DNA from: a virus
DNA: 31,796 nt
Direction: 5' to 3' (one strand)
IMG/VR virus record: IMGVR_UViG_3300043548_000664
Coordinates: 1 to 31,796 of that record
Below, piece after piece: positions 26,187 through 31,796 of this stretch. A program made the position numbers and the translations under genes. The notes under the pieces were generated by a model that was not told the origin of the DNA, did not search any database, and was given only the letters and a program-made list of their open reading frames with translations. Every line of letters starts with the position of its first letter. Position 1 is the stretch's first letter.

Positions 26187-26197
26187 ATATAAGATAT
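26175..26197. repeat. Perfect 10-bp inverted repeat covering the queC start codon
   Basis: ATATCTTATA (26175-26184) and TATAAGATAT (26188-26197) pair around TTA; the right arm contains the first two bases of the ATG. It could hide the start codon in mRNA made from a more distant promoter, or serve as an operator over the putative -10. Confidence 0.7.
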
Positions 26198-26936
26198 GTC
26201 TAATAAAAAATGTGTAGTGGTTTTCAGTTCAGGAATGGACTCAACCGTGGTTCTTCATCATTGTTTAAAGGAATATGATGAACTTTATTGTTTAACATTT
26301 AATTACAATCAAAGGCATCGAAAAGAAATTGATAAAGCTTTAGAATATACTACTTCTTTAGGTGTTGGGGATGGTTGTTCTATTAAACAACACATTGTAG
26401 TAGATTTAAAATTTCTTTCTCAATTAGCTCCCACTTCTGCTTTAACCAATAAAGACATTAATGTCCCACAAATGAAGCAAGTTATTGGTGAAGCACAAAA
26501 TAAAGCACACGTTCCTAATCGCAATATGATTATGTTGTCTATTGCTGCTTCCTATGCTGAAGCTAATGAATGTCCGGAAGTCTTTTATGGGGCAGCTTTA
26601 GTAGATGATACTAGCGGTCATTGGGACGGTACTTCTCAATTCCGTAATAGTCTTAATGATTGTTTGGCTTTTAATAGACTTCACAAGGTTCAAATTCAAG
26701 CGCCTTTAGTTAAAATGTCTAAAAAAGAAATCATCGAATATGGAATTTCTTTAGGAGTTCAATTTGATAAAACTTGGACTTGCTATGAAGGCTTAGATTT
26801 AAGTTGTGGTACCTGCCCTGCTTGTTCAGCAAGACTTCAAGGTTGGGTTCAAACAGGATATGAAGATCCTCTTCCCTACTCAAAAGAAATTCCCTGGCAA
26901 AAGTATAATTGTGTGACATTATCAAAGAATGTGTAA
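26196..26936 (+). CDS. queC: QueC, 7-cyano-7-deazaguanine (preQ0) synthase
   Basis: 246 aa. QueC uses ATP and ammonia to turn 7-carboxy-7-deazaguanine into preQ0. The PP-loop is SSGMDST (11-17; usually SGGLDS). VPNRNMIML (106-114) and the zinc site TWTCYEGLDLSCGTCPAC (C196, C204, C207, C210) are complete, and the length is typical, so the enzyme should be active. It heads a dense operon, overlapping the glutamine amidotransferase by 8 bp. In phages QueC usually feeds 7-deazaguanine DNA modification that blocks restriction. The upstream enzymes (FolE, QueD, QueE) and a DpdA-type transglycosylase are not in this window and may be elsewhere or supplied by the host. A hairpin spans the start codon. 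Confidence 0.95.
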   Translation: MSNKKCVVVFSSGMDSTVVLHHCLKEYDELYCLTFNYNQRHRKEIDKALEYTTSLGVGDGCSIKQHIVVDLKFLSQLAPTSALTNKDINVPQMKQVIGEAQNKAHVPNRNMIMLSIAASYAEANECPEVFYGAALVDDTSGHWDGTSQFRNSLNDCLAFNRLHKVQIQAPLVKMSKKEIIEYGISLGVQFDKTWTCYEGLDLSCGTCPACSARLQGWVQTGYEDPLPYSKEIPWQKYNCVTLSKNV

Positions 26937-27561
26937 CATTTGTGGATCTACTTCTTTAGAAAAAGCTCATCAGCTTTATGTAGAAGGATTAGAAAGAGGT
27001 TCCTTTGCTTCTGGATTTTTGGTGTTTACTAAAAATCATTTCCGGCTTTTTAAACAAGAAAATCCTTTTGAATTAGATTATCTTCAAAAAGAAATTAAAC
27101 AATCATTAGACGAATTTGGAATTTATTACTTGTTTCATTCTCGAGCACCAACCAATTCGAAACAACCTCATTTCGATTACACTACCACACATCCCTTTAA
27201 TTTTGGATTCAATTTTGTAGCTCATAACGGTATTATACAAAATTTTACTGAATTTCCTAATCATCAAGAATTTAATGTAGATTCATCTATTATTCCTTAT
27301 CATCTGTATACTAACAAAGGAGATATAGTTAAAACATATTCAGCTTATAAAGGGCTTTTAACTTCTTGGATTTATACTACAGAAAAGCTTTATTTGGTTA
27401 AAGCTGGATCTTCTTTGCATATGGATCAAGATTCTTTTAGCTCTACCTCATTTGAAGGATCCCATATCATTGAAGAAGATGGAATTGTTTATGAATTTAA
27501 TGGATTAAAGTTTGATCAAATTAATACATTTCCTTATGAAAACCCTTACTTTCTTTTATGA
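26929..27561 (+). CDS. Class II glutamine amidotransferase (GAT), partner of QueC
   Basis: 210 aa. It begins MCNICG, so Cys2 becomes the N-terminal Ntn nucleophile after Met removal. Further class II GATase residues follow: FHSRAPTNS (R72), a HPF turn (88-90), AHNGIIQN (N100, G101) and VDSS (D118). It would release ammonia from glutamine. There is no synthetase domain fused to it, so it needs a partner. The 8-bp overlap with queC makes QueC the natural one: archaeal GAT-QueC fusions form archaeosine from preQ0. The pair could therefore amidate preQ0 to the formamidine, or deliver ammonia to QueC. The next gene overlaps its stop by 4 bp. Confidence 0.88.
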   Translation: MCNICGSTSLEKAHQLYVEGLERGSFASGFLVFTKNHFRLFKQENPFELDYLQKEIKQSLDEFGIYYLFHSRAPTNSKQPHFDYTTTHPFNFGFNFVAHNGIIQNFTEFPNHQEFNVDSSIIPYHLYTNKGDIVKTYSAYKGLLTSWIYTTEKLYLVKAGSSLHMDQDSFSSTSFEGSHIIEEDGIVYEFNGLKFDQINTFPYENPYFLL

Positions 27562-28232
27562 ATAAATTACTAATAGTAACTTGCACTGAAACCAAAACCG
27601 ATAAAGAATTTGAAAAGAAACCTATTTTTCAAAGTTTAAAAAAACAATTTGAATCTAATTCAAATATTGATTTTCATGTATTTAAAGACAATAAAAGAGG
27701 GTTATCTGAATGTTATAATGAAATATTAAAAGATCCTAAAAACCAAGACAAAATGGTTTTATTTGTTCATGATGATGTTGTATTGGAGGATATTTTTCTT
27801 TACGAAAAATTAATGAATACTCCTTACTCCATTACAGGGTTAGCTGGTACAAAATCTTTTAATAAGAAAGTGGACAAAACCGCTTGGCACTTATGTGCTA
27901 CTTCGAAAGAAGATTTCGTTGGAGAGGTAGCTCATATTAAAGACAATCAAATATGGACCACAGTTTTTGGTCGCACACAATCTCGAGCCTTGATCGTAGA
28001 TGGATTGTTTATTGCTTGTAAGGTTAATGACTTAGTACAAAAAGATTTATATTTTAATGAAGAATTTTCTTTTCACCATTATGATATGACTTTTTGTTTA
28101 AATGCGAATGAAAAGAAAGTCAGTGTAGGGGTTTTACCTATTAGGGTAATTCATTATGGTTTAGGAGATTCTATGTTGACTGCTCAATGGGAAGAATCAA
28201 ATAAAAAATTTAAGGAGATTTATTGCAAATAA
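27558..28232 (+). CDS. GT-A-type glycosyltransferase (StrF/Glyco_tranf_2_5-like)
   Basis: 224 aa. LFVHDDVVLED (D72, D73) is a DxD-like nucleotide-sugar/metal site. VDGLFIACK, FNEEFSFHHYDMTFCL and VIHYGLGDS follow in the order typical of StrF-domain glycosyltransferases. No membrane segment or signal is present, so it acts in the cytoplasm. Its start overlaps the amidotransferase stop (ATGA), which ties it to the QueC/GAT pair. Possible targets are a modified base in phage DNA, as T4 glucosylates hydroxymethylcytosine, or host surface sugars. The base-glycosylation idea is inference from operon position. Confidence 0.78.
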   Translation: MNKLLIVTCTETKTDKEFEKKPIFQSLKKQFESNSNIDFHVFKDNKRGLSECYNEILKDPKNQDKMVLFVHDDVVLEDIFLYEKLMNTPYSITGLAGTKSFNKKVDKTAWHLCATSKEDFVGEVAHIKDNQIWTTVFGRTQSRALIVDGLFIACKVNDLVQKDLYFNEEFSFHHYDMTFCLNANEKKVSVGVLPIRVIHYGLGDSMLTAQWEESNKKFKEIYCK

Positions 28233-28250: not shown

Positions 28251-28838
28251 ATGATTATTACACGCGAACAACTAAAAGAAGCATCAGGATCAGATTATTA
28301 TTGTGGGAAAATTTTGCACGAACCTTTTGGTTACAAATTTCTCAAGAAGTCTGTAACTCCTACAGGAGATATTATTTCCTTTATTGCACCTATGCAGGTT
28401 ACAGATCACCTCATTGATTTGGAAGATTCCATGAGCAAGGATTATATCTATTCGGATTTGGCTATGCAATTTCTTATTGAAATTCCTAATATTGATTTGT
28501 ATGCCTCTATTTGTTTTCAAAGACTCTTTAATGCCCAACTAGGCTCTCTACTATGTTCAAACTTTATTAAGAAACAAGGTTATGTAGATGGAGATGATAT
28601 TATGATTGTTGATGGAGAAGAACATAAAAAGTGTTCAGTGTCTATTGCAGCTCAAAAGAATAATTGTGCTTTAATTCATACAGGTATCAATATCCGAGCA
28701 GGAGATAAAGCTCCTTCTTTTGCTTATTCTACTAATCTAGAAGAGACAGAAGCTTTGACGTTTATGCAACAGGCTGAAAATATTTTTCAAAACATGACTA
28801 TGGATATTCATGTAGCTATGCGTAAAGTCATTGTATGA
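28251..28838 (+). CDS. DUF366-like protein
   Basis: 195 aa. Segments ISFIAPMQVTDHLIDLEDSM, YSDLAMQFLIEIPNIDL, FQRLFNAQLGSLL, and GDDIMIVDGEEHKKCSVSIAAQKNNCALIHTGINI resemble the DUF366 family (VDxED, MxHFIxE, QRL, GDDLxV...KLSVSIA, IHTGxN), known mostly from archaea and some phages. Function is unknown to me. It lies 18 bp after the glycosyltransferase and overlaps the gp62-like gene by 4 bp. Its link to deazaguanine chemistry is suggested only by neighbours. Family match is from memory of the motif order. Confidence 0.66.
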   Translation: MIITREQLKEASGSDYYCGKILHEPFGYKFLKKSVTPTGDIISFIAPMQVTDHLIDLEDSMSKDYIYSDLAMQFLIEIPNIDLYASICFQRLFNAQLGSLLCSNFIKKQGYVDGDDIMIVDGEEHKKCSVSIAAQKNNCALIHTGINIRAGDKAPSFAYSTNLEETEALTFMQQAENIFQNMTMDIHVAMRKVIV

Positions 28839-29200
28839 CGATCTTTGATTATTTAAAAGACATCACAGTAACTAAGAAGGGGGATATGCCTTTAGAAGGA
28901 TACCCCCCTTTCCTTATTAACCGATGGATGAGTTTCATTTCTCCATCTTCTTGTTTAGCTATCAATGAATCCGTTAATACTTTAGGAAATGTTGACAAAG
29001 ATATTCATTATAAACTTTTGATATCTTGTTTCCCTAAGCAAAAATATAATCCGAGAATTAATTACATTAAAAAAATTAAACAAGAAAAAGAAGATAAAGA
29101 TGATAAAATTTCTATATTAGCTAAATCTTTAGAACTTTCTCAAAAAGAAATACAACAAATGCTTGACTTTAAAGAACAATTGAATAAATCAAATATATGA
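28835..29200 (+). CDS. 62: Sliding-clamp loader small subunit, gp62-like
   Basis: 121 aa. MTIFDYLKDITVTK, PPFLINRWMSFISPSSCLAINESVN, DIHYKLLISCFPKQKYNPRINYIKK and a helical C-terminus with SQKEIQQML follow the layout of the short gp62 proteins of T4-like phages of aquatic bacteria (T4 gp62 itself is longer). With gp44 it loads the gp45 clamp on DNA. Neither gp44 nor gp45 is in the window. ATGA overlaps on both sides place it in the queC transcription unit, so replication and modification genes may be expressed together. Confidence 0.82.
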   Translation: MTIFDYLKDITVTKKGDMPLEGYPPFLINRWMSFISPSSCLAINESVNTLGNVDKDIHYKLLISCFPKQKYNPRINYIKKIKQEKEDKDDKISILAKSLELSQKEIQQMLDFKEQLNKSNI

Positions 29201-29568
29201 ATCTACCAACAGAAAATAACGGAATCACCCCAGAAGACTATAAAGATCTTCCTCTCCCAGAAGATTATGAAATCACAGAACTCTTAGGTGATGTAATTAT
29301 GGTCAAGTACCTCGATATAGTTGATGGAGGTGTTAAAAGAAATGGAATCATTCTCCCTAATCAAATTGTGGACAATCGTGCGTGGAGAGTTGGTGAAGTG
29401 GTATTAGCAGGGCCTGCTTGCAAACAAGTTAAGAAAGGATCTAAAGTTATCTTTCCGGGAGACCGTGGACTTCAGGCTATTCGACAAAAAGAAGGTATGG
29501 TGATTTTTTTGTCAGAGAATAGAATCTTCGGTATTTGTGATGTTGTTGCTAAAGCAGAAGAAGCATGA
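29197..29568 (+). CDS. 31: GroES-like co-chaperonin, gp31-like
   Basis: 123 aa. LGDVIMVKYLDIVDGGVKRNGIILPNQIVDNRAWRVGEVVLAGPACKQVKKGSKVIFPGDRG (about 30-92) is a GroES-type beta-barrel with a mobile-loop region (VKRNGIILPNQ), as in T4 gp31. It would cap host GroEL and allow folding of the major capsid protein. The N-terminal 25 residues are an acidic extension. It is placed between the clamp-loader gene and a conserved unknown, with ATGA overlaps at both ends. Confidence 0.85.
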   Translation: MNLPTENNGITPEDYKDLPLPEDYEITELLGDVIMVKYLDIVDGGVKRNGIILPNQIVDNRAWRVGEVVLAGPACKQVKKGSKVIFPGDRGLQAIRQKEGMVIFLSENRIFGICDVVAKAEEA

Positions 29569-30321: not shown

Positions 30322-30912
30322 ATGAATACTCCCAAATTTAATGAACTTTTAGAAAATCTTCTTTCTAATCTCCAAGAAAAAAAATTAAGCAATATCACTT
30401 ATATTTTTAATGATGTTCGAGCCGGGCAATTAGACGGAAAAGATAGAGAAAGAAGAGTTTGGGAAATTGGGTTTAAAGAAGGAGAAGGACTTCCTAGTGG
30501 AGATCTTTTAGATTTGCTTAGTAATAGAACCGGATTAAAGATATCTGCTATTTTAAGAATTTTAGATAAGTTGGAACAAATGGGGGTAGTTGAAGCTTCT
30601 TCAGAGGATGAAGCAGAAGCCCCAGAAGAAATTGAATCCTTTGATGACGAAGAAACCCTCAATCCCGATGAAGAAGCGGAAAGTTATTTAAAGGGTGATT
30701 ATGATGATGAAGGGGAAGATGAATATCGTTTTGAAAGTCTTCAAGAAGCTAAAAAATCTTACTCTGCTAAAGAAGCTCGTAAAGGTAAAGACATCGGTAA
30801 AAAGGGAAAAATGTTTGGTAAGATTGCTAAGTCCGCTGGTAAGAAATACGGATCTAAAGAAGCCGGTAAAAAAGTTGCCGGAGCGATTCTTAAAAAACTT
30901 CGTACGAAGTAA
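30322..30912 (+). CDS. Putative virion protein with winged-helix-like domain and histone-like basic tail
   Basis: 196 aa in three parts. Residues 1-92 look like a winged-helix fold (KISAILRILDKLEQMGVVEA is a recognition-helix/wing-like segment). Residues 93-137 are a very acidic disordered linker (SEDEAEAPEEIESFDDEE...). Residues 138-196 are Lys-rich and Ala/Gly-rich (KSYSAKEARKGKDIGKKGKMFGKIAKSAGKKYGSKEAGKKVAGAILKKLRTK in part), histone-H1-like. The KGKDIGKxGKxFxKIA...YGSxEAGxxVAGAxLxKL pattern recalls tails of structural proteins in related phages. A late-promoter box supports late expression. It may bind or package DNA. It overlaps the convergent deaminase gene by 23 bp. Confidence 0.6.
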   Translation: MNTPKFNELLENLLSNLQEKKLSNITYIFNDVRAGQLDGKDRERRVWEIGFKEGEGLPSGDLLDLLSNRTGLKISAILRILDKLEQMGVVEASSEDEAEAPEEIESFDDEETLNPDEEAESYLKGDYDDEGEDEYRFESLQEAKKSYSAKEARKGKDIGKKGKMFGKIAKSAGKKYGSKEAGKKVAGAILKKLRTK

Positions 30913-31315
30913 TTTGAATTAATTCAATACCAAATTTTTTAGCTAACTCTATTGTAGAAGGATCCTGTTTATAGATTTCTTCATAAACAATTTTCTTAAT
31001 ACCATAAGAGGCTAAAGATTTCAAACAATCATTACAAGGTAAAAGAGTAACCGCAGCCAGATAACATTCTTCTGGTCTTACATATCGAAGAGCATTAGTT
31101 TCTGAATGTACTACGTATTTTCTTCGTTCATTACGATCATTCCAATCTTCTTCCATTCCTGAAGGAAATCCATTAAATCCTAAAGAAGCTACACTGTTAT
31201 CATGCCTCAACAAACAACAACCTACTTGAATGTAAGGATCTTTAGATTTAAGAGCCGCTACTTGAGCTAACTTTAAAGCATATTCTTCCCAACTCAAATT
31301 GTTAATGGGTTTCAT
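30890..31315 (-). CDS. Deoxycytidylate (dCMP) deaminase
   Basis: 141 aa. The zinc site is VHSETNAL (H70, E72; HSE instead of the usual HAE) and LLPCNDCLKSL (C94, C97). The N-terminal WEEYALKLAQVAALKSKDPYIQVGCCLL and GFNGFPSGMEEDW are typical of the dCMP deaminase family. It would convert dCMP to dUMP for dTTP synthesis in phage replication. T4 cd is longer. The start is shared over 14 bp with the end of the upstream deaminase-fold gene, so they form one unit; the 3' end overlaps the plus-strand gene by 23 bp. Confidence 0.88.
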   Translation of the reverse strand: MKPINNLSWEEYALKLAQVAALKSKDPYIQVGCCLLRHDNSVASLGFNGFPSGMEEDWNDRNERRKYVVHSETNALRYVRPEECYLAAVTLLPCNDCLKSLASYGIKKIVYEEIYKQDPSTIELAKKFGIELIQITSYEVF

Positions 31316-31721
31316 ATCCGTTATTAGTAGACCAAATGACCTGTTTAAAATTGTGATATCTGAGAAGAGAGGTACAACTCATACAGGGTTTAGCCAAAGC
31401 TTTAAAACCGTTACGATCGTAACGAAGATTGATTAAAGTGCATTTACGAGTATCTATATTAGTTAAGCGTTTTAATTTAAGTATCGCACTCAATTCAGAA
31501 CAGGTTTGTTTTTGATTAGAATAATCCTCTCCAGTAACTCTAGAAATTTTTCTATTACGAAGATTTAAAGGATGTGTTTTATTAGAATTTAGCCCTGTAG
31601 ATATAAGACGATTTTTATAGATAATAAAAGAAAAATGTCTACAACGATTAGCGTTATGATTATCTAGCAAAGAAAGAGCAATGTCTTCTAGTCTTTCAAA
31701 CGGGATTGTCGTCGATATCAT
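31302..31721 (-). CDS. Second cytidine-deaminase-fold protein
   Basis: 139 aa from the ATG at 31721 (MISTTIPFERLEDIALSLL). Upstream ATGs at 31733 and 31769 are in frame but would extend further into the preceding gene. HFSFIIYKNRLISTGLNSNKTHP, CSELSAIL (C74, E76) and KPCMSCTSLL (C113, C116) give a C-x-E...PCxxC zinc site, as in cytidine deaminases where Cys replaces His. It is not a copy of the neighbouring dCMP deaminase. The substrate (nucleoside, nucleotide, nucleic acid) is unknown. It overlaps its upstream partner by about 26 bp and the downstream deaminase by 14 bp. Confidence 0.72.
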   Translation of the reverse strand: MISTTIPFERLEDIALSLLDNHNANRCRHFSFIIYKNRLISTGLNSNKTHPLNLRNRKISRVTGEDYSNQKQTCSELSAILKLKRLTNIDTRKCTLINLRYDRNGFKALAKPCMSCTSLLRYHNFKQVIWSTNNGYETH

Positions 31722-31796
31722 TAGAGAAATCATCAATCTTTTTTTGAAGCAAATCAACAATAATATCATTGATTGGTAAATCTTTTTCTAATGATT
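31696..31796 (-). CDS. 3' end of a gene cut by the window edge
   Basis: An open frame enters from the right edge and ends TGA at 31698-31696. The last 32 residues (SLEKDLPINDIIVDLLQKKI, then DDFSNDIDDNPV) are an acidic helix and tail with natural-looking composition. Its end overlaps the start of the second deaminase-fold gene. Function cannot be told. Confidence 0.5.
   Translation of the reverse strand, partial: SLEKDLPINDIIVDLLQKKIDDFSNDIDDNPV

Follow-up and report, generated by a model that had tools for sequence, protein, structure and literature searches.

The stretch of DNA analysed here (the 'window') is a 31,796-base IMG/VR fragment of an uncultured T4-like phage, and it carries on its plus strand a short run of genes whose identities are established by sequence and by fold: a QueC homologue, a stand-alone glutamine amidotransferase (GAT), a glycosyltransferase (GT) and a protein of the DUF366 family. 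The first two of these were recognized in an initial annotation of the same sequence; the GT and DUF366, the next two genes of what proves to be a conserved cluster, were missed.

The first gene (26196..26936) encodes a 246-residue homologue of QueC, the enzyme that synthesizes preQ0 (7-cyano-7-deazaguanine). It matches Pfam PF06508 (E=1.6e-57; 194.9 bits against a cut-off of 22) and NCBIfam TIGR00364 (179.3 bits against 150.3), and its closest solved chain is the QueC structure 2pg3 (E=1e-30). All four zinc cysteines are present (C196/C204/C207/C210, as C...CxxCxxC), as are the motifs VPNRN (VPxRN) and YNQRHRKE (YxQxHxxE), so that the initial description of a complete QueC with a PP-loop and four zinc cysteines was borne out. 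Two motifs depart from the canonical enzyme throughout the clade to which the window belongs: the P-loop reads SSGMDS, not an exact SGGxDS, and HWDG replaces YPDC, which places a histidine at the position of Y131, the tyrosine of YPDC and the essential aromatic residue of E. coli QueC (PMC13329287). Because of these deviations, membership in the QueC family was assigned from the curated model and the remaining motifs. Among deposited sequences, the QueCs of the KVP40 group come closest, with 37-38% identity.

The second gene (26929..27561, plus strand) encodes a stand-alone class II (Ntn) GAT of 210 residues, identified by its family profile and conserved residues. Taken as a single sequence it falls below threshold against Pfam (PF13522, E=0.014), while a profile of 25 relatives matches the glutaminase domain of GlmS in the PDB at E=1e-13. 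The catalytic residues are intact: C2, N100, G101 and D118 are kept family-wide; R72, which had been listed with Cys2, N100 and G101, is confined to the window's near clade and is Gln in the remaining relatives. The ORF contains no synthetase domain of its own, as had been reported, and the 8-bp overlap with QueC (26929-26936) was also described correctly; since this junction ranges among relatives from an overlap to a short gap, the overlap is ordinary phage gene packing. The idea that the GAT is a remnant of a GlmS- or AsnB-type enzyme with no relation to QueC is unlikely, as the gene keeps company with QueC in two groups of phages.

The GT gene (27558..28232, plus strand) encodes 224 residues with a GT-A fold and a conserved HDD motif; it scores 33.6 bits against PF13712 (cut-off 27), and its predicted model (pLDDT 92) finds UDP-bound majastridin, 2qgi, as its best Foldseek match (E=5e-10). 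The DUF366 gene (28251..28838, plus strand) encodes 195 residues, matches PF04017 at E=4e-22 (79.2 bits, cut-off 29.9) and is predicted to adopt a biotin/lipoate-protein-ligase fold: its model (pLDDT 84) retrieves the solved DUF366 protein 2ddz at E=4e-11, followed by LplA/BirA proteins at about 1e-5.

Two more plus-strand genes follow, in an order that is the same in relatives: a T4 gp62-like clamp-loader small subunit (28835..29200; phrog_225, E=1.5e-12), a conserved neighbour that is probably not part of the pathway, and a Cpn10-like (gp31-type) co-chaperonin (29197..29568; PF00166, 21.4 bits, at the cut-off), which serves as a synteny marker. Elsewhere in the window, a large ORF at 616-2190, with HNH-like and methyltransferase-like parts discerned by eye, has no match in the compared relatives and is probably a mobile insertion. 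Two overlapping cytidine-deaminase-like genes (30890-31769, minus strand) are both conserved in relatives; the first matches dCMP deaminase well and the second weakly (21.3 bits, below the cut-off).

Two phage families with a separate amidotransferase

An alignment scan recovered 80 viral loci that fall into two families. Family A, to which the window belongs (70 loci), has the order QueC, GAT and then GT; family B, typified by Vibrio phage KVP40 (10 loci), has QueC and GAT together with QueD, QueE, FolE, DpdA2 and often QueF. Where there is room to see it, a same-strand QueC lies upstream of the GAT in 37 of 39 family A loci and in all six family B loci, counts that take in related contigs and hence do not represent independent events. 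The description of QueC and GAT as a functional-looking pair was thus upheld by their retention in two groups of T4-like phages. QueC abuts the GAT in the window's clade and in most family B loci, while in distant marine members of family A a distance of 1.3-2.4 kb separates the two genes, and the GAT is bound more tightly to the GT than to QueC. The GT itself is found directly downstream of the GAT in 69/69 readable family A loci versus 0/10 in family B, counts that likewise take in related contigs.

In most distant marine members of family A, three of the four zinc cysteines of QueC are gone, so that not every member of the clade need be an ordinary preQ0 synthase. A number of these proteins (L052, L064, L071, L075, L085, L105 and others) read TCY...ADATTPSSS(M/L)R where the zinc cysteines stood, and retain the P-loop, YxQxHxxE, VPFRN and YWDG; one of them, L085, still scores above the QueC model cut-off.

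The unfused pair is also present in well-known phages. It occurs in KVP40, nt-1 and roughly 50 deposited phage records in which the GAT has been left 'hypothetical'; the KVP40-type GAT is found in 51 deposited records, 49 of them from Vibrio phages. In KVP40 itself, QueC (KVP40.0124) overlaps by one base the next gene, KVP40.0125, which encodes a 202-residue GAT with PF00310 that is annotated as hypothetical and is 22% identical to the window GAT across its full length, with Gln in place of Arg72. In nt-1 and 6E35.1a, too, QueC is followed at once on the same strand by a stand-alone class II GAT, again unnamed, and the pair recurs in Pseudomonas phage pf16. The QueCs of these phages belong to one clade with that of the window, and in KVP40 and nt-1 gp31 lies nearby, as it does in the window. 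In contrast to the window, the KVP40-type cluster is without GT or DUF366 and is adjacent to DpdA2, FolE and often QueF. A table in the literature of the deazaguanine genes of KVP40 includes 0120, folE, 0122-0124 and 0284 and omits 0125 (PMC8056088), although the separate GAT may already have been noted in earlier literature.

A comparison with the fused Gat-QueC proteins of phage 9g/JenK1, Vid5, Quinobequin and Crenarchaeota is the natural one, as both combine a class II GAT with a QueC PP-loop domain. The likeness ends with these two activities. The fused enzyme, which yields dG+ together with DpdA (PMC6884629), is one polypeptide with its GAT first, whereas the window has two ORFs with QueC first. 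In a 34-row tree of QueC sequences, those of families A and B, which are accompanied by a separate GAT, group in a single clade with support of 99/94, and the fused Gat-QueC domains are placed elsewhere, on a long branch. The GAT domains are no closer: the N-termini of fused Gat-QueCs score 31-39 bits against the GAT family profile, versus 55-60 bits for phage class II GATs that belong to other proteins and 55 bits for GlmS. An origin by breakage of a Gat-QueC fusion is rejected by the tree and by these scores, and the label 'split GAT-QueC' that the locus had been given is not supported insofar as it implies descent from, or equivalence to, the archaeal or 9g enzyme.

One deposited record, that of BSTP10 (MW354677.1, BSTP10_081; L186), carries an annotation of a GATase/QueC fusion; the protein is a 223-residue QueC alone, and it was rejected as an example of the fused enzyme. 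A separate glutaminase that feeds a PP-loop ATPase has a parallel in the archaeal GMP synthase with its separate GAT subunit (PMC13329287), which differs in acting on XMP and in using a class I GAT (PF00117), whereas that of the window is class II.

Pathway genes and the DUF366 connection

A search of the rest of the genome for folE, queD, queE and a dpdA-like transglycosylase had been proposed. FolE, QueD, QueE and DpdA were not found in the window or in its near relatives, which are fragments of 20-55 kb, but the first three steps are present in long family A relatives. In these long and more distant records QueD and QueE flank a phoH-like gene and FolE or FolE2 is present, so that with QueC the FolE/FolE2, QueD, QueE and QueC steps are all found. 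In the long relatives, too, the gp62-cpn10 block of the window comes after DUF366, and a sugar epimerase gene lies next to DUF366. QueF occurs in one of them (G013), with a gene for a PurN-like formyltransferase nearby; in the same genome QueF and QueE are each accompanied by an AAA_28 kinase-like gene (L127:17258-19342, minus strand; L125:16401-17144, plus strand), and these formyltransferase and kinase-like neighbours might carry out a formylation of preQ1 or be nucleotide kinases. In two other relatives (G002:4094-4978 and G005:4226-5116), an opposite-strand ORF that by eye is GIY-YIG-like lies between GT and DUF366, where the window has none.

No recognizable transglycosylase emerged from the long relatives. 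A search of five long family A records (309 ORFs) by PF01702, a motif regular expression, purpose-built DpdA1/2/3 profiles and hhalign found no DpdA; its control comparison recovered DpdA1 versus DpdA3 (97%) and did not recover DpdA2, so that a divergent DpdA could escape it.

DUF366 was found beside QueC in five of the seven bacterial genomes first examined, Gastranaerophilales and Oligoflexia among them; of these five, one from Oligoflexia has QueD adjacent as well. The same linkage holds in Bdellovibrionota, where DUF366 adjoins QueC in 28/30 loci (L154-L183; the best-scoring 30 of 48 positive genomes), on the opposite strand in one of the 28 pairs; DUF366 also occurs in two methanogen control genomes. 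These bacterial pairs resemble the phage cluster in having QueC and DUF366 side by side. They differ from it in being directly adjacent, with no GAT or GT between them, and they are cellular, presumably serving tRNA queuosine. The possibility that DUF366 stands in for bacterial QueD or QueF was rejected, as 7/7 tested genomes have both. A literature search for a function of DUF366 or COG2029 found no paper. As a guess from fold and motif, DUF366 might share with its fold relatives the ability to activate a carboxylate. The only match to DUF366 in deposited phages, in Microcystis phage MaAM05 (MW495066.1, L028), looks bacterial and was set aside; it is 99-100% identical to Vampirovibrio, and the record carries secF, glyS, fabI and fliM.

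Likely product and competing interpretations

The cluster probably makes a 7-deazaguanine, and the reading favoured here, with somewhat better than even confidence, is that QueC and the GAT form a two-polypeptide, glutamine-dependent preQ0 synthase within a 7-deazaguanine pathway, with GT and DUF366 belonging to the same cassette. The GAT would hydrolyse glutamine and pass the ammonia to QueC, which would use ATP to convert 7-carboxy-7-deazaguanine to preQ0, possibly by way of the amide or partly halting there. The remaining steps (FolE or FolE2, QueD, QueE and sometimes QueF) would be encoded elsewhere in the T4-like genomes, and GT and the ligase-fold DUF366 protein would probably work on the 7-deazaguanine product or in steps close to it. 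What we infer are the physical pairing of GAT and QueC, preQ0 as the product, DNA as its destination and the functions of GT and DUF366. Several observations weigh against this reading: the histidine that the window QueC has in place of the essential Y131; the distant marine phages, in which QueC is poor in zinc cysteines and the GAT lies nearer to GT; and the fact that the window and its closest relatives, as fragments, show no FolE, QueD, QueE or DpdA. Other QueC enzymes function without a GAT, so why these would need one calls for an explanation.

The product itself is judged here by analogy with phages that carry the same pair. The DNA of nt-1 contains 232 dPreQ0, 72 dADG and 44 dG+ per million nucleotides (PMC6884629), and in 6E35.1a, which has QueF, 15% of dG is modified, with a mass that fits dPreQ1 (PMC12028318). 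By this analogy, ammonia transfer from GAT to QueC with preQ0 as the main product is most likely, and deoxyarchaeosine as the main product is less likely, since both phages share the pair yet show mainly dPreQ0 or dPreQ1. The earlier proposal, that this phage makes deoxyarchaeosine or a related base from two polypeptides, therefore survives as to the pairing and is weakened as to dG+ as the chief product. That QueC and GAT act together as a Gat-QueC, converting preQ0 to the formamidine G+ so that the phage DNA carries deoxyarchaeosine, is accordingly regarded as improbable: the Gat-QueC of phage 9g does give dG+ with DpdA, and dG+ is detectable in nt-1 (PMC6884629), but dPreQ0 exceeds dG+ about fivefold there, Hutinet et al. 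credit nt-1 with an ArcS homologue for the step from preQ0 to G+, and neither the QueC nor the GAT of the window is close kin to the halves of Gat-QueC.

Gene order raises the question of whether the GAT serves QueC at all. It might instead serve the GT, by aminating a sugar or a glycosylated product, with its closeness to QueC a matter of shared regulation only; this would suit the invariable GAT-GT order of family A, the distance to QueC in most of those loci, the standing of GlmS as the nearest solved GAT and the epimerase that adjoins DUF366 in long relatives. It sits poorly with family B, which keeps QueC beside the GAT with no GT, with the absence of a sugar isomerase domain and with the presence of QueC alongside the GAT in nearly all informative family A loci, and we hold it to be quite improbable. 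The cassette could also do nothing more than top up the tRNA queuosine of the host during infection and leave the phage DNA unmodified, as the lack of a recognizable DpdA in the five long records and the QueF of G013 would allow. This, too, seems unlikely, given that DpdA2 and modified DNA both occur in the related phages of family B, that GT and DUF366 lie outside known tRNA queuosine synthesis, and that the formyltransferase-like gene near QueF in G013 would fit hypermodification of phage DNA. A hypermodified base of this kind, fdPreQ1, has been published.

Returning to the favoured two-polypeptide preQ0 synthase, GT and DUF366 are conserved genes of its cluster that have not previously been linked to such base-making by phages. 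A bolder extension, put forward only tentatively and with considerable doubt, is that family A makes a new 7-deazaguanine derivative that is processed by GT and DUF366 (for example, glycosylated) and enters DNA without a known DpdA, DUF366 being a 7-deazaguanine enzyme common to phages, Bdellovibrionota and archaea. The linkage of DUF366 to QueC, in a phage operon and in Bdellovibrionota, together with its occurrence in methanogens, gives a first functional context to this family, which has a solved structure and for which no assigned role could be found. The GAT of KVP40 and nt-1 has long been in plain view as a hypothetical protein, and its recognition allows a direct test of the origin of the mixed 7-deazaguanines of nt-1. 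Finally, a preQ0 pathway and a conserved GT, in one phage lineage and without a recognizable transglycosylase, would be a sign of a modification or an insertion route not yet known.
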